This document shows, piece after piece, positions 9,195 through 19,416 of a stretch of DNA of 26,407 nucleotides. Numbering within the stretch: the stretch's first letter is position 1; every line of letters starts with the position of its first letter. The notes below the pieces were generated by a model. It worked only from the letters and a program-made list of their open reading frames with translations, had not been told where the DNA came from and did not search any database. This stretch comes from a virus. The stretch lies in IMG/VR virus record IMGVR_UViG_3300044630_001391, positions 1-26,407 of that record, one strand, 5' to 3'. Position numbers and translations under genes: made by a program.

Positions 9195-9424
9195 GTAATT
9201 ACGCTATAATCCCTAACAGGGGTATTTATTATTTTAGTAAAAGAAAAAAAACTAAGTTTGTACCCCTGTTTAAAATTTGCAAGGTCAACGGAACCACCTT
9301 AGAAGAGTTCCAAGCACTAATAAATCAGATTGAAATAACTTTAAAAAATGGCACCACAAAACAACAAACCGACCCACGCCCGAATAGCTTGGGTGGAGGT
9401 CATCCCGGAAGGGATACTAATTAA
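9191..9424 (+). CDS. Small unknown protein with TTG start
   Basis: The 77-residue frame begins at TTG 9191, overlapping the previous stop (TTGA). The N-terminal part (NYAIIPNRGIYYFSKRKKTK, then VPLFKICKVNGTTLEEFQAL) looks like a small mixed fold. The last 24 residues (TKQQTDPRPNSLGGGHPGRD) have low-complexity, out-of-frame character, and the next gene covers them in another frame. No family recognised. Confidence 0.5.
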   Translation: MSNYAIIPNRGIYYFSKRKKTKFVPLFKICKVNGTTLEEFQALINQIEITLKNGTTKQQTDPRPNSLGGGHPGRDTN

Positions 9425-9536
9425 ACAGATTGGACTGTATACCGAGGATGGCGAATACATACGAGACGCTAAACTTAATGGCGATCTACTTTGCACACTG
9501 ACCGAGCACCCGCTAGCCATTACGATATGCAAATAA
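9348..9536 (+). CDS. Small unknown protein
   Basis: This 62-residue frame begins at ATG 9348, right after a run of A residues, and overlaps the previous frame by 77 bases in +1. The product is a compact mixed sequence (ARIAWVEVIPEGILIKQIGL, then YTEDGEYIRDAKLNGDLLC) with no membrane segment or known motif. It overlaps the primase start by 10 bases, matching the coupling used through this operon. Confidence 0.55.
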   Translation: MAPQNNKPTHARIAWVEVIPEGILIKQIGLYTEDGEYIRDAKLNGDLLCTLTEHPLAITICK

Positions 9537-11701
9537 ATTTTCTGCCTAACATCAAACTGAGCAACAAATTTACTGTAATACCCATTACGGAATATCTGGA
9601 GCTTGTAAGGAATGGCACGTATATTAACAGCATCGAGGCGTTTAGAAACTCGGCCGCACTATCCAAAGACCAGCAGGCGGAAATTAAGCAACAGATCCCT
9701 GCGGTAACAATAAGCGGAATTTTTAAAGACAGCGTTAAAAATGCAAACCTACTAACGCACTCAGGGCTTATTTGTATAGATTTTGACGCGGTGGAGAATC
9801 CCGGGCAATTAAAAGCGGAGTTATCCAAAGACCCCTATACTTTTGCCGCATTATTGAGCGCTTCAGGCAATGGCTTGGCCGCGATAGTACGAATAGAAGC
9901 CGACAGGCATTTGGATTCGTTTAACGGGCTTAAAACCTATTATTTTCGTAATTACGGGCAGCTAATAGATGCAAGTTGTAAAAATGTAAGCCGCCTGCGT
10001 TTCCTTTCAGTAGACCCTGCGCTATTTGTTAACCCCTCGAGTAAGGTATTTAAAGAATACCCAAAAAAGGAGGCAAAGCCCAAGGTAGTTAACACTGTGC
10101 TCACCGGCAACGAGTTTGACGAGCTTATAGATAGGATTTGTCGGGGTGGTTATGATTTAACGCAAGGAGTTTACAGCAATTATCTCAGCATTGGGTTTGC
10201 ACTGGCTTCCGAGTTTGGAGAACGAGGGCGCGAGCATTTCCACGCTATATGCGCGCAAAATGATAAATACGACCCCGCAAAGGCTGACAAACAATTTACA
10301 TATTGTTTACGCGATACGGGCCTAAGTAAGGTAACCATAGCGACTTTTTACTATTATGCCAAGGAGGCAGGCGTTGAACTAAAATCCGCCCAATCGGTTA
10401 AGCTTGAGAATATAGCCAAAATGGCAAAGAAACAAGGGCGCGCTAAGGAGTCAGTTATTGAAATTGCACGCCTGCAGGGTATGGATATTGAGAAAGCCAC
10501 AGAGACCGCGGCAGCAGTATACGAGGCCAACGTTAACCTCGCATTGGTTGGCCAGACTAACCTCGGACTCGTTCAACTTTACCTATCCAATAATTACCAA
10601 CTGTACTATAACACTATTACAAATGATTTAGAAGATCGCACAGTGCTATTTAATAACAGGGCCAAAATTATAGACGATATGGCCCTAAATACAATGTATT
10701 TGCGTTTTTCAGAGGTTACAGATAATAAGATAAGCTTTGAGTTTTTTTGCCGTGTAGTTTACTCTGAGCTCACGACCTATTACAACCCTTTCGAGGATTT
10801 TATTAGACTTAATCAATCCATCCAGAGGGGGCAGGAATTAATCGAGCAACTAGCCGCCTGCATTGAAACCCCGACGCCAAATGTATCAAAATACTTAACG
10901 CATTGGGGCGTTGGTATGATTGCAAGCATTTTTGGGCGCACATCGCCTTTGGTCTTAGTGCTAGCAGGTGAACGCCAAAACACGGGTAAAACAGAGTTTT
11001 TTAGGCGCCTTTTGCCCCCTCAGTTATCCAACTACTACGCAGAGAGTAAACTGGATGGCGGTAAAGATGACGATATTTTGTTAACGAAAAAGTTAATTAT
11101 AATGGATGATGAATTTGGGGGTAAGTCTAAGCTGGAAAGTAAGCGCTTTAAGGAACTGACAAGCAAAGCCAGTTTCTCTATTCGCTTACCTTACGGACGG
11201 ACTCACCGAGATCTAAAACGCTTAGCCGTCTTAGCAGGAACGACTAACGATTTGGGCCTAATCAGCGACCCAACAGGCAACCGCCGAATCTTGCCAGTGA
11301 ATGTAACTGCAGTAAACCAAACTCAATACAACGCTATCGACAAATCCGCACTATTTATGGCCTTTTATGACCTATACCAAAGCGGCTTTAAGTGGGAGTT
11401 ATCAAGCGCTGACATAGCAGAATTAAACGAAAATAGTGATGAATTTAACGCTATTAATTTTGAGGCTGAATTAATAAATCAATTTTTATTTAACCCAAAA
11501 GAAGGCGAATATTCGTCATATTTGAGTAATACGGAAATTAAAATTTACTTAGAATTGTGCTCAAATCAGAAGATTTTTGACACTCGGAAGCTCGGAATGG
11601 AGTTAAAAAACATGGGATTTTTGCAACGGGTCGTAAAATTAAATTCAAAAACCCAAAGAGTTTTTAGGGTCGGAAAGATAAAAACGCTACAAAATGACTA
11701 A
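9527..11701 (+). CDS. Primase-helicase: BT4734-like AEP primase domain fused to VirE-type ATPase
   Basis: Read from ATG 9527, the product has 724 residues. The N-terminal part (about 1-170) matches BT4734-like primases: LICIDFDAVEN (81-91), which carries the metal-binding acidic pair, SASGNGLAAIVRI (111-123) and SRLRFLSVDP (155-164). A primase C-terminal-like region follows (about 200-270). The C-terminal part is a VirE/SF3-like helicase: Walker A GERQNTGKT (481-489), Walker B LIIMDDEF (523-530), sensor GTTND (571-575) and an arginine-finger region GNRRILP. It should prime and unwind DNA at the phage origin, which I place immediately downstream. Starts upstream of 9527 would only overlap the previous gene further. 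Confidence 0.9.
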   Translation: MQINFLPNIKLSNKFTVIPITEYLELVRNGTYINSIEAFRNSAALSKDQQAEIKQQIPAVTISGIFKDSVKNANLLTHSGLICIDFDAVENPGQLKAELSKDPYTFAALLSASGNGLAAIVRIEADRHLDSFNGLKTYYFRNYGQLIDASCKNVSRLRFLSVDPALFVNPSSKVFKEYPKKEAKPKVVNTVLTGNEFDELIDRICRGGYDLTQGVYSNYLSIGFALASEFGERGREHFHAICAQNDKYDPAKADKQFTYCLRDTGLSKVTIATFYYYAKEAGVELKSAQSVKLENIAKMAKKQGRAKESVIEIARLQGMDIEKATETAAAVYEANVNLALVGQTNLGLVQLYLSNNYQLYYNTITNDLEDRTVLFNNRAKIIDDMALNTMYLRFSEVTDNKISFEFFCRVVYSELTTYYNPFEDFIRLNQSIQRGQELIEQLAACIETPTPNVSKYLTHWGVGMIASIFGRTSPLVLVLAGERQNTGKTEFFRRLLPPQLSNYYAESKLDGGKDDDILLTKKLIIMDDEFGGKSKLESKRFKELTSKASFSIRLPYGRTHRDLKRLAVLAGTTNDLGLISDPTGNRRILPVNVTAVNQTQYNAIDKSALFMAFYDLYQSGFKWELSSADIAELNENSDEFNAINFEAELINQFLFNPKEGEYSSYLSNTEIKIYLELCSNQKIFDTRKLGMELKNMGFLQRVVKLNSKTQRVFRVGKIKTLQND

Positions 11702-11723
11702 AAACGGGCAAAAAATACGATTT

Positions 11724-11992
11724 CAGTGTAACCAAAGCCTAGCATGGGCTAAGGGGGTATTTTGGGGGTGCGGTTACAAAAGTTACACGAAAATACATAA
11801 CTTTCCCCAGTGGATTTTACTATTGGATTTTTACCCTATTTATGTTTTACTGTTTTCCAAAGTCTTTACATTTCTCTGTAACTTTTGTAACTTTGGGCTA
11901 TATCCCAATGCAGGACAGGGTTACACTGGAATTGAAGTCTCTGTAACTTTTGTAACCGAGAGGGCTCTAGACCAAGCCTAGAAAGGGTTACA
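11724..11992 (+). other. Probable replication origin with iteron-like repeats
   Basis: The 332 bases between the primase-helicase and the VRR-NUC gene hold nine copies of TGTAAC in six clusters. Three are the double form TGTAACTTTTGTAAC: direct at 11877-11891 and 11942-11956, inverted at 11773-11787. Three are singles sharing CAGTGTAACC: direct at 11724-11733, inverted around 11919-11928 and 11986-11995. An AT-rich stretch lies between the inverted and direct double copies (about 11800-11870), and a TATATATATA run lies at about 12024-12034. Spaced, oriented repeats beside replication genes are typical of origins with initiator-binding iterons. A regulatory role for the repeats is the alternative. 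Confidence 0.6.
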
Positions 11993-12033
11993 CTGACTAT
12001 TCCACTAAATAGGACACTAAAGAATATATATAT

Positions 12034-12378
12034 ATGAATGAGAATCAATTACAACAATCAATTTATTTATGGTATCAAAATACCTATGTCATCCACGATA
12101 AGCGCTGCATGATCCTGAGCATACCTAATGGAGGGCTAAGGGATAAGATGACAGCCATTACTATGAAGGCAACAGGGTTGTATAAGGGGGCGGCTGACCT
12201 AATGATAGTGCACAGGGGTTGGATGGGGTTTGTTGAGCTTAAGACAGAGACAGGCACACAGTCACCTCAGCAGAAAGCATTTGAGTTACATTGCAAACAG
12301 GCGGACATACCTTACCTATTAGTGCGCACCTTGGCAGAGTTTCAGGACTTAATCATGAGCTTAGATGCCAAGCGTTAA
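12034..12378 (+). CDS. VRR-NUC domain nuclease
   Basis: This 114-residue protein is a stand-alone VRR-NUC domain (PD-(D/E)XK fold). Visible motifs are SIPNGG (29-34), GLYKGAADLMIVHRG (48-62) with the catalytic Asp55, FVELKTETGTQSPQQKAF (66-83) with the E68-x-K70 pair, and the C-terminal LVRTLAEFQDLI. Phage VRR-NUC proteins are structure-selective nucleases that may resolve replication or recombination intermediates before packaging. The start follows a TATATATA run with no promoter box. The 3' end overlaps the HNH gene by 14 bases. Confidence 0.85.
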   Translation: MNENQLQQSIYLWYQNTYVIHDKRCMILSIPNGGLRDKMTAITMKATGLYKGAADLMIVHRGWMGFVELKTETGTQSPQQKAFELHCKQADIPYLLVRTLAEFQDLIMSLDAKR

Positions 12379-13241: not shown

Positions 13242-13453
13242 AAAAGAAAATAGAAACAACCGAGCCAGTGGAAGTAACGGCGGGAGTAACCTTTAGAGTT
13301 GAGCCAAGCGGCTTGCATTTTATCGTTAGCCGTAATCAAGGCAGCGGCTTTAAGCCATGTGGCAAGGATGGGCTTTGGAGCGATACGCCGCACCTTTACA
13401 GAAACCAATACCTTGCGCAGATAGCTTTAGATTATTTCTTTGCGAATAGCTGA
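13238..13453 (+). CDS. Small protein between the terminase genes, unknown function
   Basis: The 71-residue product (VTAGVTFRVEPSGLHFIVSR, then ending YLAQIALDYFFANS) has no motif I recognise. It looks like a small beta-rich fold with a C-terminal helix. It is coupled at both ends: ATGA with the small terminase, and a 14-base overlap with the large terminase, whose TTG start lies inside it. A packaging accessory role is suggested only by position. Confidence 0.6.
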   Translation: MKKKIETTEPVEVTAGVTFRVEPSGLHFIVSRNQGSGFKPCGKDGLWSDTPHLYRNQYLAQIALDYFFANS

Positions 13454-15062
13454 ACAGTATATTGAGGGCGTAGTGAGTGGGCGCGTAATTGTGTGCGAAC
13501 ACGTGCGCAATGCTGTTAACCGCTATCTGTCGGATCGTGCAAACGGTTGGGCGTTTAGTGAAAACTACGCTCAGCACGCTATCGACTTTATCGAACAGCT
13601 CGAGCACTCGACGGGCGACTATGCCGGCAAGCCGTTTAAGTTGGAAGGGTGGCAGGCGTTTATAGTTTGGAATCTGTTTGGCTTTCTCAATCCCGACGGC
13701 TCGCGAAGATTTACGCGGGCTTATGTTGAGGTCCCCCGAAAAAATGGCAAATCTACTTTCTCCAGTGCTGTTATGCTTTACGGCTTAATGGCCGACGGGG
13801 AAAGTGCAGCGCAAGTTTATTCGGCGGCTACAAAACTTGATCAGGCAATGATGGTATTTGCGGAGTCTGTTAGAGTTTGCCAAAATGTAGACTGGCTAGC
13901 AGAATCGTTAACCGTTAACAACAGTGTAAACAATCGGCGCATCCTTTACGGGCAATCGGTGTATAAGCCCCTCGAGTGGAACCCAAGTAAACAGGACGGA
14001 CTAAATACGCACTTTGCAGTTATTGACGAATACCACGCGCACCCTAACGATGAGCTTTATAACGTATTGCGCAACTCGATGGGAGCCAGACGGCAACCGT
14101 TGTTATTTACAATTACGACGGCGGGCTTTAATCGTGAGTCGCCGTGTTATAAACATCGCAATTACTGCGCGTCTGTTTTATCTGGGGCTATTATAGACGA
14201 TGCTTTGTTCAGCGTCATTTACACGCTAGACGAAGGCGATGATTGGACAGACTCGGCAAACTGGGCTAAGGCTAATCCTAATTGGGGCATTTCGGTTTAT
14301 CCGCGTCAGTTAGAGCAGGCGCTAACCGAGGCAAAGGAATTTGTACACAAAGAAGTTGAGTTTAAAACAAAGTTGTTAAACGTGTGGACAGATACGGCAA
14401 TGACTTGGATTAATGACAGTACTTGGATGGAATGCGCAGAGTCTCAACAGTTAGACGGTATTTGTTACGGCGGGTTGGATTTGGCGAGCACTGGGGACTT
14501 TTGCGCCTTTACTTTGTACTGGCCCGAATACTCAGCAATTAGGACTTGGTACTTTTTGCCAAGCGAGGCAGCGTATAGGCGTAAGGATGCGGCAGGGGCT
14601 TCTATTAGGCAATGGATTGCAGACGGCCAGATAATTGCAACCGATGGCAACGTAACGGATTATAATTTTATCAAAGCGCAAATATTAGATTTGGCTTTAG
14701 AGTTTGATATTAAGGATATTGCTTACGATCGTTTCAACGCTTCGCAGCTTGTAATTGATTTACAAAACGAGGGATTGCAAATGTTTCCCTTTGGTCAGGG
14801 GTTTATTTCAATGAGTAGCCCAACTAAAGAACTGGAGCGCTTAGTAAAGGACGGCAGGCTTAAACACGATGGCAACCCAGTAACGCGTTGGATGATGGGT
14901 AATGTATTACTTGCAAATGATCCTGCTGGCAATATTAAGATTAACAAAGCAAAGAGCGGCGATAAGGTCGACGGGCCTGTTAGTATTGTGATGGCTTTGG
15001 GAACTGCTATGCAAGACGCTGCCAAAGAAAAAGAAACGGACTTTTGGTTTATAAGCTTATGA
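13440..15062 (+). CDS. terL: Terminase large subunit
   Basis: This 540-residue packaging motor begins at TTG 13440. N-terminal features are typical of the HK97-type family (YIEGVVSGRVIVCEHVRNA, then FKLEGWQAFIVWNLFGF). The ATPase has a Walker A-like VPRKNGKST (98-106), Walker B FAVIDEYHAH (192-201) and motif III TITTAGF (224-230). The C-terminal nuclease begins with YGGLDLASTGDFCAFTL (343-359), with Asp347 and Asp353 as candidate metal ligands. It cuts concatemers and pumps DNA into proheads through the portal. It is read at its 5' end by coupling from the previous gene and overlaps the next by 4 bases. Confidence 0.95.
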   Translation: MRIAEQYIEGVVSGRVIVCEHVRNAVNRYLSDRANGWAFSENYAQHAIDFIEQLEHSTGDYAGKPFKLEGWQAFIVWNLFGFLNPDGSRRFTRAYVEVPRKNGKSTFSSAVMLYGLMADGESAAQVYSAATKLDQAMMVFAESVRVCQNVDWLAESLTVNNSVNNRRILYGQSVYKPLEWNPSKQDGLNTHFAVIDEYHAHPNDELYNVLRNSMGARRQPLLFTITTAGFNRESPCYKHRNYCASVLSGAIIDDALFSVIYTLDEGDDWTDSANWAKANPNWGISVYPRQLEQALTEAKEFVHKEVEFKTKLLNVWTDTAMTWINDSTWMECAESQQLDGICYGGLDLASTGDFCAFTLYWPEYSAIRTWYFLPSEAAYRRKDAAGASIRQWIADGQIIATDGNVTDYNFIKAQILDLALEFDIKDIAYDRFNASQLVIDLQNEGLQMFPFGQGFISMSSPTKELERLVKDGRLKHDGNPVTRWMMGNVLLANDPAGNIKINKAKSGDKVDGPVSIVMALGTAMQDAAKEKETDFWFISL

Positions 15063-15244
15063 GATTTGTAGATGATTTTATGAACAAGTATTATTTTAAC
15101 CTTCCTAAGTTTAGAACTTACGAGGATGCCTATAACGCAACCGAGGCCGAGTACCTGGAAAGGTACGGCGTGCCACGCTATAAAAACTACGACGTATTTC
15201 GCTCGGCCCTCAGCAGGTGGCTGGCACAGGGGCGCAATAAATAA
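15059..15244 (+). CDS. Small protein between terminase and portal, unknown function
   Basis: The 61-residue product, read from ATG 15059 (ATGA overlap with the large terminase), is rich in Tyr, Arg and Asp (MRFVDDFMNKYYFNLPKFRT, then YEDAYNATEAEYLERYGVPR). No domain is recognised. It is followed by a 44-base gap with a promoter-like element, so it ends the terminase operon. Confidence 0.6.
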   Translation: MRFVDDFMNKYYFNLPKFRTYEDAYNATEAEYLERYGVPRYKNYDVFRSALSRWLAQGRNK

Positions 15245-15246
15245 GA

Positions 15247-15283
15247 TTTGTTAACAAGGCAGAATTTAAGGAGTTGTAATTTG
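15247..15283 (+). promoter_or_regulatory. Late promoter-like element before the portal gene
   Basis: TTTGTTAACA (15247-15256), 17 bases, then TTGTAATTTG (15274-15283), five bases before ATG 15289. The same arrangement, with TTGTAATTTTG, precedes the tail gene at 26076. The -7 part is one base short of TAnnTTTG here. Confidence 0.55.
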
Positions 15284-15288
15284 CACCG

Positions 15289-16560
15289 ATGAATTTAAGA
15301 TTTTGGGAACGGAAAACAGAAAAGCGGTCAATGCTAACGCAACCCGCGGACTGGTTTGTAAATACCTTAAACAATATTTTTGGCTATCAAACCAAAAGCG
15401 GCCAAGCCGTAAATAATACAACGGCGTTAAGCATTGCATCCGTGCACGCTTGCGTTAGAGTTATTGCGGATGGGATAGCAGGCCTAGGCTTAAAGTTGTA
15501 TAAAGACGATGGGCAGAACAGAGACCAAATTATAATCCACTACGCCACAGCTTTAACTAACGAGCCGAATCCCTATCAAACTAAATACGATTTTACCAAG
15601 TACATGACGAGCCACTTGGCGCTAACTGGTAACGCTTACGCTTTTATTAATCGCGATGTGCGAAACATTGGCATCGAGTTGCACCCAATCGCGCCGCAGT
15701 ATGTAACGCCAGTAATGCAGGACGGCCTTTTATTTTACAAGGTTACACTGGCAGGATACCCGGGCATGATCCCTGCTACTGAAATGCTACACTTTAAAGG
15801 AATGTGTGGCGACAATCCGCTAGTAGGTTTAAGCCCTGTCGTATTGCACGCCGAAACTTTAGGTATTGACTTGGCAGCAATCAGCCAGAGCGCAGGAGTT
15901 TATAAAAATGGAGTATTGAAATTTTTGTTAACGTCAGACGCGCAGATAAAAATAGACCAAGCAGGGCCGTTAAAAAAATCGCTCGACGATGTTATAGACG
16001 GGGCAAGCCGTAGCGCTGTGCTTCCTAACGGAATCAAGATGGAGAAATTAAGCCTAAGCCCTGAAGAGGCACAGTACTTGGAGACCCGTAAATTTAGCAG
16101 CGAGGAAATCGCAAGAATCTTTGGAGTGCCCGCGTCAATGATTGGCGCAACCGCAGGGATTAAGTCCAGCGTCGAGCAGGAGTACCAAGATTTTTACGCG
16201 CGTACTTTGATGAGCTACGCTATTAACATCGAGCAGGAACTAGCCCGCAAGCTGTTAACAGAAAACGACAAGCTCACATATTACTTTAAATTTAATTTTA
16301 ACTCACTATTGAGGGCCTCCGCCAATGAGCGCGCAGACTATTACAATAAAGGCATTCGCGGCGGCTGGCTTTCACGTAACGAGGCGCGGGTATACGAGGA
16401 CGTTAACGCGTTTGATGGTGGCGACGAATATTTAATTGAAGCCAACTTAATGCCGTCAAGTCAAATCAACGAGTATATGGATGCGAAGATTGCAAACCTT
16501 ATGGCGACCGCAGACAAAAACAATAACCCCGAGGGCGTAAATAACCAAACAATAAATTAA
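15289..16560 (+). CDS. Portal protein, HK97 family
   Basis: This 423-residue protein has the HK97-family portal pattern: ALSIASVHACVRVIADGIAG (46-65), then GLGLKLYKDD, the NEPNPYQTKYDFTKYMTSHL region, ALTGNAYAFINRD, and a C-terminal part with SSEEIARIFGVPASMIGATA. Twelve copies form the ring at one head vertex through which DNA enters and leaves, and on which the connector assembles. The length is normal for the family. The start lies 5 bases after a promoter-like box, and the next gene begins 2 bases after the stop. Confidence 0.93.
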   Translation: MNLRFWERKTEKRSMLTQPADWFVNTLNNIFGYQTKSGQAVNNTTALSIASVHACVRVIADGIAGLGLKLYKDDGQNRDQIIIHYATALTNEPNPYQTKYDFTKYMTSHLALTGNAYAFINRDVRNIGIELHPIAPQYVTPVMQDGLLFYKVTLAGYPGMIPATEMLHFKGMCGDNPLVGLSPVVLHAETLGIDLAAISQSAGVYKNGVLKFLLTSDAQIKIDQAGPLKKSLDDVIDGASRSAVLPNGIKMEKLSLSPEEAQYLETRKFSSEEIARIFGVPASMIGATAGIKSSVEQEYQDFYARTLMSYAINIEQELARKLLTENDKLTYYFKFNFNSLLRASANERADYYNKGIRGGWLSRNEARVYEDVNAFDGGDEYLIEANLMPSSQINEYMDAKIANLMATADKNNNPEGVNNQTIN

Positions 16561-16561
16561 A

Positions 16562-17173
16562 ATGAAACAAGAAAGGCGCACATTTACGGGCACCGTCCAC
16601 ACCAGAGCAGACGGCGAAGGCATGCCAAAAGAAATTGGTGGCATCGCTGCCGTTATTAATTCAGTAACTGACCTTGGATATTTTGAAGAGGTGATAATGG
16701 CAGGGGCGTTTGACAATGCTTTGAGCAAAGATTACGATATTCGTTGTTTGTTTAATCATGAAGCCGATTTAATTTTGGGCCGCACTAAGGCAGACACTTG
16801 CAGAGTATTTGTAAATGGCGACGGCAATCTTGAATATACTTGGGTTCCAGATTACGAGAACCCTACGCATATGAGCGTTGTGCGTTCTATTATGCGCGGA
16901 GACATTACGCAAAGCTCATTTGCTTTTACAATCAAAGAGCAGAACTGGAGCGAGTCAGAAAAATACGGCACAATGGGAAAGCGTACTATTAAAGTTATTG
17001 AGGACCTTTACGATGTTAGCCCTGTAACTTATCCTGCTTACGAGGATACAGAAGCGGACGCTCGTAGCATTGCAGCCATAAGAGACCAAGAGTTAGAAAT
17101 TGAAGCCGCAAAACAAAGCCAAGTCAGCGCAGATATTTTGAAACTTGCTTTAGCTAGATATACAAACTATTAA
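16562..17173 (+). CDS. Prohead maturation protease, HK97 (U35) family
   Basis: This 203-residue protein carries the expected catalytic elements of the HK97-type serine protease: His66 in CLFNHEAD, Ser119 in GDITQSSFAF (113-122), and DVSPVTYPAYEDTEA (151-165) near the C-terminus. It removes the scaffolding delta domain from the major capsid protein during head maturation and then digests itself. The gene sits in the standard place between portal and capsid. Confidence 0.92.
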   Translation: MKQERRTFTGTVHTRADGEGMPKEIGGIAAVINSVTDLGYFEEVIMAGAFDNALSKDYDIRCLFNHEADLILGRTKADTCRVFVNGDGNLEYTWVPDYENPTHMSVVRSIMRGDITQSSFAFTIKEQNWSESEKYGTMGKRTIKVIEDLYDVSPVTYPAYEDTEADARSIAAIRDQELEIEAAKQSQVSADILKLALARYTNY

Positions 17174-17186
17174 AAAAACAAAAATC

Positions 17187-18500
17187 ATGAATAAAATTAA
17201 AGCCCTAAAAGAAGAGCGTGGACGTTTGCTAGGCGAATTGTCTACCCTACAATCTACCATCGAGCGTGAAGCACGTTCTATGGCTGACACTGAAAACAAC
17301 CGTTTGTCTGAAATCGAAGCTCGTTTGGGCGCGATCAAAGCAGAGGTTGAAACCTTAGAGAAATTGCAAAACCTTGCAGCTCAAGCCGCAGGCCACAGCG
17401 CAAGCCGTAGCGAAGAAAAAGAAAAGTCTAACATGGCTAAAGATTACAGCTTTAAGCGCGCGATGGAAATGGCTATCACTGGCCGTCGTGAAGGCGTTGA
17501 AGGCGAATTTTCTGCAATGGGTGGATCTGAATTTCAGCGCTCAGGTGTAAGCGTTTCTGCTCACTCTATCAAAATCCCTTCTGAAGTATTTACTCGTGAC
17601 ATGACTGCAACAGGCGGAACTTCTGGTTCTGAAGGTGGCGTAAACGTTCAAACTTCTGTTGGTTCTATCATTGACGTTTTGTTGCCTCGCACAGTATTGG
17701 CAGGTTTGGGCGTTCAACGTTTGAGCGGATTGGTTGGAAACTTGGATTTACCAACAGCATCAACTTTGCCAAGTGCAGGTTGGAATACTGAGAACGGCAC
17801 AGCTACTGAAAAGAGCCCTGCTTTCTCTAAAATCACTTTTTCTCCGAAGCGTTTGGCTGCCTATATTCAGGTATCTAACCAGTTAATGTTGCAATCTAGC
17901 AACTCTATCGACGGGTACGTTCGTAACTGGTTGTTAAATGCAATGGCTCAATCTTTGGAAACTGCTGCTATTAAAGGTGGTGGATCTAACGAGCCTGTAG
18001 GAATTATCGGTAACGCTAACGTTAACGTAACTTTCGCAGGTGGCGCAACTTCTAACTCTACCAACGCTAACGGAATCGCTCCAGTTTGGGCCGATGTTGT
18101 TAACTTGATGAAAGCCGTTGAGAACGCTAACGGAAACGGTGTTGCTTACTTGACTAACCCATTGGTGAAAGCTAAATTGCAAACTACTGCCCGCCAATCT
18201 TCAGGTGTTGAAGGTAACTTTATTTGGCCTTCTGGTGGTACTGATTTGAACGGTTACAATGTTCAAACAACTACCTTGGTTCCTAGCAACTTGTCTAAAG
18301 GTTCTAGCTCTACTTTGTCTGCAATGATCTTCGGAGACTTCAGCAAAATGGCTATCGCTAACTGGGGCGGTATGGAGTTGACAGTTGACCCGTATAGCGG
18401 AGCTACTGCCGGCTTGACTAACGTTGTGCTTAACGCTTATTTGGATTGCAACTTGTTGAACCCTGCAGCCTTCGCGGTTTGTAAGGACATCGTTGCCTAA
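17187..18500 (+). CDS. Major capsid protein, HK97 fold
   Basis: This 437-residue protein has an N-terminal coiled-coil delta-like domain (about 1-65, LKEERGRLLGELSTLQSTIE), probably removed by the protease next door. Then comes an HK97-type body with SVGSIIDVLLPRTVLAGLGV, FSKITFSPKRLAAYIQVSNQ and the C-terminal FGDFSKMAIANWGGMELTVD. It builds the head. Codon use differs from its neighbours (frequent CGT, TCT, GGT and AAC), as expected for the most highly expressed gene. The leader before ATG 17187 is A-rich (TTAAAAAAACAAAAATC), a feature linked to strong translation in Bacteroidota. A structured RNA region follows the stop. Confidence 0.95.
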   Translation: MNKIKALKEERGRLLGELSTLQSTIEREARSMADTENNRLSEIEARLGAIKAEVETLEKLQNLAAQAAGHSASRSEEKEKSNMAKDYSFKRAMEMAITGRREGVEGEFSAMGGSEFQRSGVSVSAHSIKIPSEVFTRDMTATGGTSGSEGGVNVQTSVGSIIDVLLPRTVLAGLGVQRLSGLVGNLDLPTASTLPSAGWNTENGTATEKSPAFSKITFSPKRLAAYIQVSNQLMLQSSNSIDGYVRNWLLNAMAQSLETAAIKGGGSNEPVGIIGNANVNVTFAGGATSNSTNANGIAPVWADVVNLMKAVENANGNGVAYLTNPLVKAKLQTTARQSSGVEGNFIWPSGGTDLNGYNVQTTTLVPSNLSKGSSSTLSAMIFGDFSKMAIANWGGMELTVDPYSGATAGLTNVVLNAYLDCNLLNPAAFAVCKDIVA

Positions 18501-18507
18501 TCACTAG

Positions 18508-18562
18508 CCCGCTCGGGGGCGTAAAAGTCCGAGTGCTGCGGGGGGTCTTGACTGCACCCCCC
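18508..18562 (+). promoter_or_regulatory. Structured RNA element after the capsid gene (possible attenuator)
   Basis: Two competing structures can form. One pairs CCCG (18508-18511) plus CTCGG (18512-18516) with CCGAG (18529-18533) plus CGGG (18539-18542). The other is a strong hairpin GGGGGGT (18540-18546) / ACCCCCC (18556-18562) with a 9-base loop. They share the G-run, so they are mutually exclusive. The second ends 9 bases before ATG 18572. There is no T-run, so RNA protection or translation control is more likely than classic termination. Confidence 0.5.
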
Positions 18563-18571
18563 ACGGGCCAA

Positions 18572-18757
18572 ATGTTAGTAAAATTTTTGATCAATCCAAC
18601 AGGCCAATTTAACCTAAGTTATAACTTGGGGGAGGTTGTAGAAATTGAAACTAAGCAAGCCGAGTTATTACTTGAGGCGGGGGCTGTCGAAGTTGTAGCT
18701 GCGCCAAAGACCAAAAAGAAACCGACAAATCCAGAGACCGAATTAGACGCCGAATAA
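18572..18757 (+). CDS. Small head-associated protein, unknown function
   Basis: Read from ATG 18572, the product has 61 residues: a small beta-rich domain (MLVKFLINPTGQFNLSYNLG, then EVVEIETKQAELLLEAGAVE) and a charged tail (KTKKKPTNPETELDAE). From memory, similar small proteins with a GEVVEL...AxxLIxAGxAE pattern follow capsid genes in many phages. They are unstudied, or possibly capsid decoration or completion proteins. A GTG at 18533 is an alternative start but lies inside the hairpin region. The end overlaps the next gene (TAATG). Confidence 0.65.
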   Translation: MLVKFLINPTGQFNLSYNLGEVVEIETKQAELLLEAGAVEVVAAPKTKKKPTNPETELDAE

Positions 18758-19416
18758 TGTTTAAATCTAGAAGATACACAGCCTTTGCCAATGTAGCAAC
18801 CGACTATTTAAGTTTGGCCGACGCTAAGCAGCATTTGCGCGTTACGGCTTCCGATGACGACAGTTATATTTCGGGTTTAATCAGTATGGCCGTTGACGCC
18901 TGCAGCAATTACTTAGGATACTCGATTAAGAAGGGAACGGCTAAATATGGCTTTGATAGCTTTACGGGCTCGCCTGCGCTAATCAATCCCGTAAACGGGC
19001 TCAATATACCTTCTGGAAATTATCTGCGCGTAAATAGCCGCGTGTTGGCTGTTAACTCTGTGAGCTATGTAAACAGCAGCCAAGCGGTGACGGCATTTGC
19101 AGGCAGTGATTGGATAGTAGCGCCTGACCCAATGGGCAACTACTCGCGAAATATCTTCATCAATACCGCGCCCGACTCAATTACTGACGATACAATTAAG
19201 TACATTATTGAAGTATCTGAGGGATTTAATCCAGTGGGAACCGCAAGCGTTGACCCCGATACTATTTTTCCAATGGCAATTAAACACGCCGCTTTGCTTT
19301 TAGTCGGTCAGTATTACGATAACAGGAATGCTGTAATAGTTGGCACTAATAATGCGCCAATGGGCCTAGGCTTTGAGTATCTTTTAGATCCTTACAAAAT
19401 CCAAATTATACTATAA
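18757..19416 (+). CDS. Head-tail connector protein, gp6-like
   Basis: This 219-residue protein begins with the gp6/phiE125 gp8-type helical core (DYLSLADAKQHLRVTASDDD, then SYISGLISMAVDACSNYLGY). A beta-rich middle follows, and a C-terminal helical part FPMAIKHAALLLVGQYYDNR that packs against the portal ring in this family. It forms the first connector ring under the portal. It is coupled at both ends by TAATG overlaps. Confidence 0.85.
   Translation: MFKSRRYTAFANVATDYLSLADAKQHLRVTASDDDSYISGLISMAVDACSNYLGYSIKKGTAKYGFDSFTGSPALINPVNGLNIPSGNYLRVNSRVLAVNSVSYVNSSQAVTAFAGSDWIVAPDPMGNYSRNIFINTAPDSITDDTIKYIIEVSEGFNPVGTASVDPDTIFPMAIKHAALLLVGQYYDNRNAVIVGTNNAPMGLGFEYLLDPYKIQIIL

Follow-up and report, generated by a model that had tools for sequence, protein, structure and literature searches.

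Gene context and repeat array of the primase-helicase locus

The stretch of DNA analyzed here (the window) comprises the 26,407 nucleotides of IMG/VR record IMGVR_UViG_3300044630_001391, which belongs to a tailed phage whose terminase, portal and head-tail connector genes lie at 13440-19416. It codes for a primase-helicase (Table 1) that contains the BT4734-like_N, PriCT_2 and VapE-like Pfam domains, all above their gathering scores, as found in members of the VirE/VapE-type family, and that also matches a PHROG annotated as DNA primase. A profile search against the PDB recovered 7pds_A ('similar to D. nodosus vapE', E 9.5e-13) as its sole relative, which we take to be SaPI5 PriRep1. Relatives of the primase in isolated phages belong mainly to Cellulophaga, Nonlabens and Flavobacterium phages; based on these, and with relatives in a genome-collection search being few and distant, we propose that the host of the phage is probably a member of Bacteroidota.

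The primase-helicase gene is followed by an intergenic gap of 332 bp (11702-12033), in which the sequence-only reading had noticed nine TGTAAC words within about 270 bp and in both orientations. Exact matching places these words at 11727(+), 11773(-), 11782(-), 11877(+), 11886(+), 11920(-), 11942(+), 11951(+) and 11987(-), the first of them 26 bp past the primase-helicase stop codon. Across this array (11727-11992, 266 bp) 0.14 copies would be expected against the nine observed (Poisson P ~6e-14); a further 14 copies are scattered outside it, with ~13 being the chance expectation for the whole window, and hence the words are nowhere else comparably dense. Their division into two forms likewise holds: a 15-mer double iteron, TGTAACTTTTGTAAC, occurs in exactly three copies in the array and nowhere else in the record, and the three single iterons all have the sequence CAGTGTAACC. 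The inner doubles are inverted relative to each other around the AT-rich stretch described earlier, which exceeds the regional A+T content of 63%. The gap was also said to lack a convincing gene, and we concur: a 95-aa ORF across it (11694-11981) was rejected because it has no family match and is poorly conserved outside the closest relatives, beyond which it is 44-52% alike over part of its length only.

The GC skew of the window shows no turn at the array and does not decide on the origin. As a nucleotide search with 11600-12100 against a phage collection gave no match, relatives were sought via the primase-helicase protein. The exact 15-mer TGTAACTTTTGTAAC also occurs in viral contigs, nearly every contig among the matches listed having one copy; these were set aside because a single 15-mer is not diagnostic.

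Table 1. Coordinates and basis of the features discussed in the text
Feature	Coordinates	Strand	Basis or remark
VirE/VapE-type primase-helicase, proposed initiator	9527..11701	+	724 aa from ATG; 736 from TTG at 9491
C-terminal winged-helix domain, residues ~645-724, proposed iteron reader	11459..11698	+	AlphaFold2 model; iteron type follows domain
Wing hairpin, residues 700-717	11624..11677	+	holds type-fixed residues 702 and 709; 719 just outside
Single iteron (CAGTGTAACC), outer left	11727..11732	+	exact word match
Double iteron TGTAACTTTTGTAAC, inner left	11773..11787	-	exact 15-mer match
AT-rich core, proposed unwinding site, 89 bp, 70% A+T	11788..11876		composition; edges CGAAAATACATAAC, CCAAAGTCTTT
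Double iteron TGTAACTTTTGTAAC, inner right	11877..11891	+	exact 15-mer match
Single iteron CAGTGTAACC, outer right	11920..11925	-	exact word match
Double iteron TGTAACTTTTGTAAC, outer right	11942..11956	+	exact 15-mer match
Single iteron CAGTGTAACC, outermost right	11987..11992	-	exact word match
T5orf172 nuclease genes	L259:2387-2950; L264:3501-4064; L265:3501-4076; L267:3501-4028		between VirE primase and iteron array

Iterons beside the primase in related phages

We gathered 78 distinct loci in which the end of the primase is present together with sufficient DNA beyond it. Within 450 bp spanning the stop codon and the DNA that follows, the count of the most frequent 7-mer was compared with those in 100 dinucleotide shuffles. 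Downstream of the primase, a repeated 7-mer exceeded all shuffles in 61 of the 78 loci, as against none of 67 upstream of the gene by the same test (one reached 0.01), and when loci are clustered at 85% identity 23 of 30 clusters bear an array. Among isolated Flavobacterium phages, snusmum6-1, mumin6-1, lotta8-1 and FPSV-S27 have iterons 3' of the primase. The array is displaced by ~1.1 kb, beyond another gene, in L027, and is also found further on in mumin6-1, with another gene between it and the primase; L040, L049, L237, L257 and L258 show no clear array at the primase 3' side. In Cellulophaga phage phi46:1, the VirE gene is followed at once on its 3' side by a gene annotated as hypothetical (L257:2632-2940), and no array could be detected at this place. 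In L009, unrelated sequence replaces the right part of the array from ~200 bp past the primase stop, leaving four words.

The words found across these relatives include TGTAAC, TGTAGA, TGACCACC, TGTACACC, TGTTACA, TGTAGTC, TGTGCCAAC, TGAGACCA, GGTTACC and TGGAAC, among others. When motifs were assigned manually for each iteron type, the innermost iterons proved to be separated by 81-114 bp in most types, a gap that is usually 66-87% A+T, whichever the word. The expectation that the words would be kept beside the primase in relatives consequently holds for the position and the layout, in the form of inverted iteron sets about an AT-rich core, and fails for the word itself, which changes even at ~97% primase identity.

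The gene downstream of the array varies as well, coding for a VRR-type protein in the window and a ResIII helicase in L036-L048. Words repeated in tandem and inverted in a gap upstream of genes can act as operators, and the words might accordingly serve a transcription regulator of the downstream genes; however, neither the inner spacing around the AT-rich core nor the location 3' of the primase changes with the downstream gene, and none of the neighbors tested is a regulator that tracks the word, making this reading very unlikely. Separately, in a Prevotella nigrescens plasmid (NZ_CP072340), TGTAGTA words occur both in the terminal part of a VapE-domain gene and past it (L270:2280-2380), on the basis of which the arrangement may reach other Bacteroidota elements.

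Word switches and the C-terminal winged helix

For close comparison we distinguished iteron types A (TGTAAC, as in the window), B (TGTAGA), C (TGACCACC) and D (TGTACACC). Arrays of one type have a common word at matching positions, and the core edges (CGAAAATACATAAC, CCAAAGTCTTT) are largely retained between types A and B. The primase bodies of A and B phages are up to 97-98% identical, and those of C and D phages 93-98%. Residue 709 (T/S) is the sole primase residue fixed between A and B, and 702 (K/R) and 719 (A or S/N) are the sole ones between C and D. The C-terminal portion of the protein stands apart in several ways: the type B primase of L008 has a body 84-85% identical to those of A and B alike and last 84 residues 99% identical to B; the type D members L012 and L026 are united by the C-terminus only; and at the nucleotide level a shared stretch extends from ~300 bp before the stop codon into the putative origin.

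An AlphaFold2 model of this C-terminal domain (mean pLDDT 83) shows the order H-E-H-H-E-E, with the last helix at residues 686-695 followed by the wing. A profile search with the domain for solved structures gave no match and a Foldseek search with the model gave nothing below E 0.03, its weak matches including several winged helices, RFX5 and TcpK among them. In RFX1 and TcpK the wing enters the major groove (PMC6137059); a wing that discriminates between words in the phage proteins would be in keeping with this usage. In another locus, a stand-alone protein encoded upstream of the primase (L232:2167-2778) has an end that resembles the C-terminal winged helix of the primase (profile E 2.8e-7), and is perhaps a replication regulator or a decoy.

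In these comparisons, the word follows the predicted C-terminal winged-helix domain and not the body of the protein. We have moderate confidence in the more specific suggestion, graded below the former, that the fixed residues in or beside the wing set the word: they are few (one and two), type D is represented by two genomes, and replacing T by S is a mild substitution. When type labels were permuted among these genomes, some arbitrary groupings yielded equal or more fixed differences elsewhere in the primase, and for this reason the placement of the observed ones in the wing is suggestive and falls short of proof.

We further propose that the word and the tip of the protein have been exchanged together between relatives by recombination. 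Such joint exchange is partly expected because the winged helix adjoins the iterons; indeed, with the two lying 25-300 bp apart and identity plots showing their joint exchange, they might co-travel merely as neighbors in a recombining cassette, devoid of any recognition. Yet linkage alone explains the pattern poorly, because the VRR-type gene on the other side, ~40 bp past the last iteron, does not travel with the type and has no type-specific residue, and the sharing of one word by all copies in an array needs a common reader. We therefore judge co-travel without recognition to be distinctly improbable. If the winged helix does read the word, these near-identical natural initiators beside different words would be ready-made pairs for studying how a winged helix chooses its origin.

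Among eight neighboring proteins compared, the primase alone has fixed differences in both A/B and C/D. The ResIII helicase has one fixed difference, in A/B only, and no type-fixed residue was found, where testable, in the DnaA-domain-IV-like protein, the VRR-type protein, two HNH proteins and TerS. DnaA domain IV is an origin-binding domain, and a 158-aa protein of the phage (6506-6982) matches Bac_DnaA_C (E 3.4e-14) with no AAA+ domain match. This raises the alternative that the locus is an origin whose word is read by the 158-aa protein, which would then recruit the primase-helicase. However, the window (TGTAAC) and L002 (TGTAGA), which are of opposite types, encode 100% identical copies of this protein, and it is consequently not the reader of the word; nor was it detected in the more distant iteron-bearing loci, within the flanks examined. 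We hence consider such a division of labor exceedingly improbable. A DnaA-type origin, with boxes read by DnaA domain IV, was likewise rejected, as none of six consensus-like DnaA box forms tested occurs in the window and the protein does not track the word. The best explanation of these patterns of sequence variation is that the initiator among the neighbors would be the primase-helicase, acting via its C-terminal winged helix, and not the small DnaA-like protein.

A proposed replication origin

The sequence-only reading had cast the array as the phage origin, with one of the neighboring proteins as initiator, and this gains support from the iterons beside the primases of relatives and from the absence of dense words elsewhere in the window. 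We consider it highly likely that 11727-11992 serves as the origin of phage replication, is of the PICI/P4-alpha kind and is read by the primase-helicase, as its initiator, via the C-terminal domain of that protein. From the observed array, the conservation of its position and layout, and a winged helix that co-varies with the word, we infer binding, melting and initiation along the following lines: the C-terminal winged helix would bind the TGTAAC words, discriminating between words mainly by the wing; the two bound iteron sets would then position helicase hexamers on either side of the AT-rich core, which would be melted prior to helicase loading; and the first primers would come from the N-terminal primase part.

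T5orf172 nucleases beside the array

In the mumin and mymlan phages, L265 and L267/L268, the primase and the main array are separated by a gene coding for a T5orf172 (GIY-YIG) nuclease; snusmum6-1 is without it. The nucleases have similar heads, and their tails resemble primase C-terminal domains: when scored against 1000 shuffles, the tails of L264 and L265 exceeded all, and that of L267 did not. The L265 tail scores 120 against the mumin primase and 77 against its own primase, and the mumin tail 88 against the L265 primase and 77 against its own. With low confidence (pLDDT 53), the tail of the L265 nuclease is modeled as E-H-H-E-E. The ICP1 nuclease Odn, in which T5orf172 is joined to a RepA-like domain, cuts the origin of a satellite in an iteron-dependent manner (PMC8263062). 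As a lead, it is possible that the T5orf172 proteins with predicted primase-like tails are origin-directed nucleases comparable to Odn. More tentatively, and with considerable doubt, we suggest that the origin word could be a fast-changing identity code in Bacteroidota phages: word and winged-helix tip would be swapped as a cassette to escape rivals that target origins, including T5orf172 nucleases with a captured primase-like origin-reading tail, an Odn-like weapon arisen separately from that of ICP1. The near-identical natural initiators beside different words also make it testable whether phage origins diversify because rivals target origins.

Comparison with known replication systems

We read the array as a PICI-kind origin because PICI origins and the crr of P4 have a similar place and layout. 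This layout is already known from phage satellites: the PICI origin directly follows the initiator gene on its 3' side and has two iteron sets about an AT-rich, presumed melting region, and the PICI rep-ori supports plasmid replication (PMC6092414). Both features of the PICI/SaPI pri-rep-ori recur here, namely the position immediately 3' of the primase-helicase/Rep gene and the two iteron sets flanking an AT-rich region. The C-terminal domain of SaPI Rep acts on iterons directly downstream of its own gene (PMC7581432), and its counterpart here would be the predicted winged helix that co-varies with the word.

In P4 (NC_001609), the array crr lies directly 3' of the primase-helicase gene alpha and, as here, is made up of short words that occur in both orientations, singly and in pairs with a 9-bp period. 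The alpha protein is described as having a winged-helix origin-binding domain (Yeo 2002, as cited in PMC10516667), the equivalent here being a predicted one. An hhalign comparison with P4 alpha gave E 0.045 over 111 ATPase columns and no match for the C-terminus, which falls short of homology; as far as sequence comparison goes, the kinship is by architecture and not by descent from P4 alpha. P4 differs in having a separate ori, with a second array at 9310-9413 in the annotated origin. Since the viral record may be incomplete, the array might by analogy be a secondary replication or incompatibility site, the main origin lying outside the 26-kb record. Against this, the record has no second array of the TGTAAC word, and PICIs have their origin in the array 3' of rep (PMC6092414); we hence view a secondary site as unlikely and retain the array as the proposed origin.

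Further parallels are seen in SCC and pRN1. The helicase gene of SCCmec Cch2 has direct repeats (AAGTG) just downstream, which are bound by the isolated C-terminal domain of Cch2; however, its primase is separate and its 23-bp direct-repeat region has three iterons instead of two sets about a core (PMC7581432). In the case of pRN1 ORF904, replication needs DNA directly 3' (within 166 bp) of a replication-protein gene, but the site is a stem-loop in which no iterons were found (PMC4234260).

The literature searched, which excluded most subscription journals, yielded no description of this layout in Bacteroidota tailed phages or of a natural recoding of an origin word. The present data place the layout in many Bacteroidota-type tailed phages. 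The window itself was rejected as a PICI element, a satellite without head genes, as it has its own TerL, portal and head-tail connector genes. Furthermore, unlike in PICIs and SaPIs, the proposed initiator is a BT4734_N-PriCT_2-VapE fusion, and many words occur within one protein family, exchanged between phages with ~97% identical initiators.
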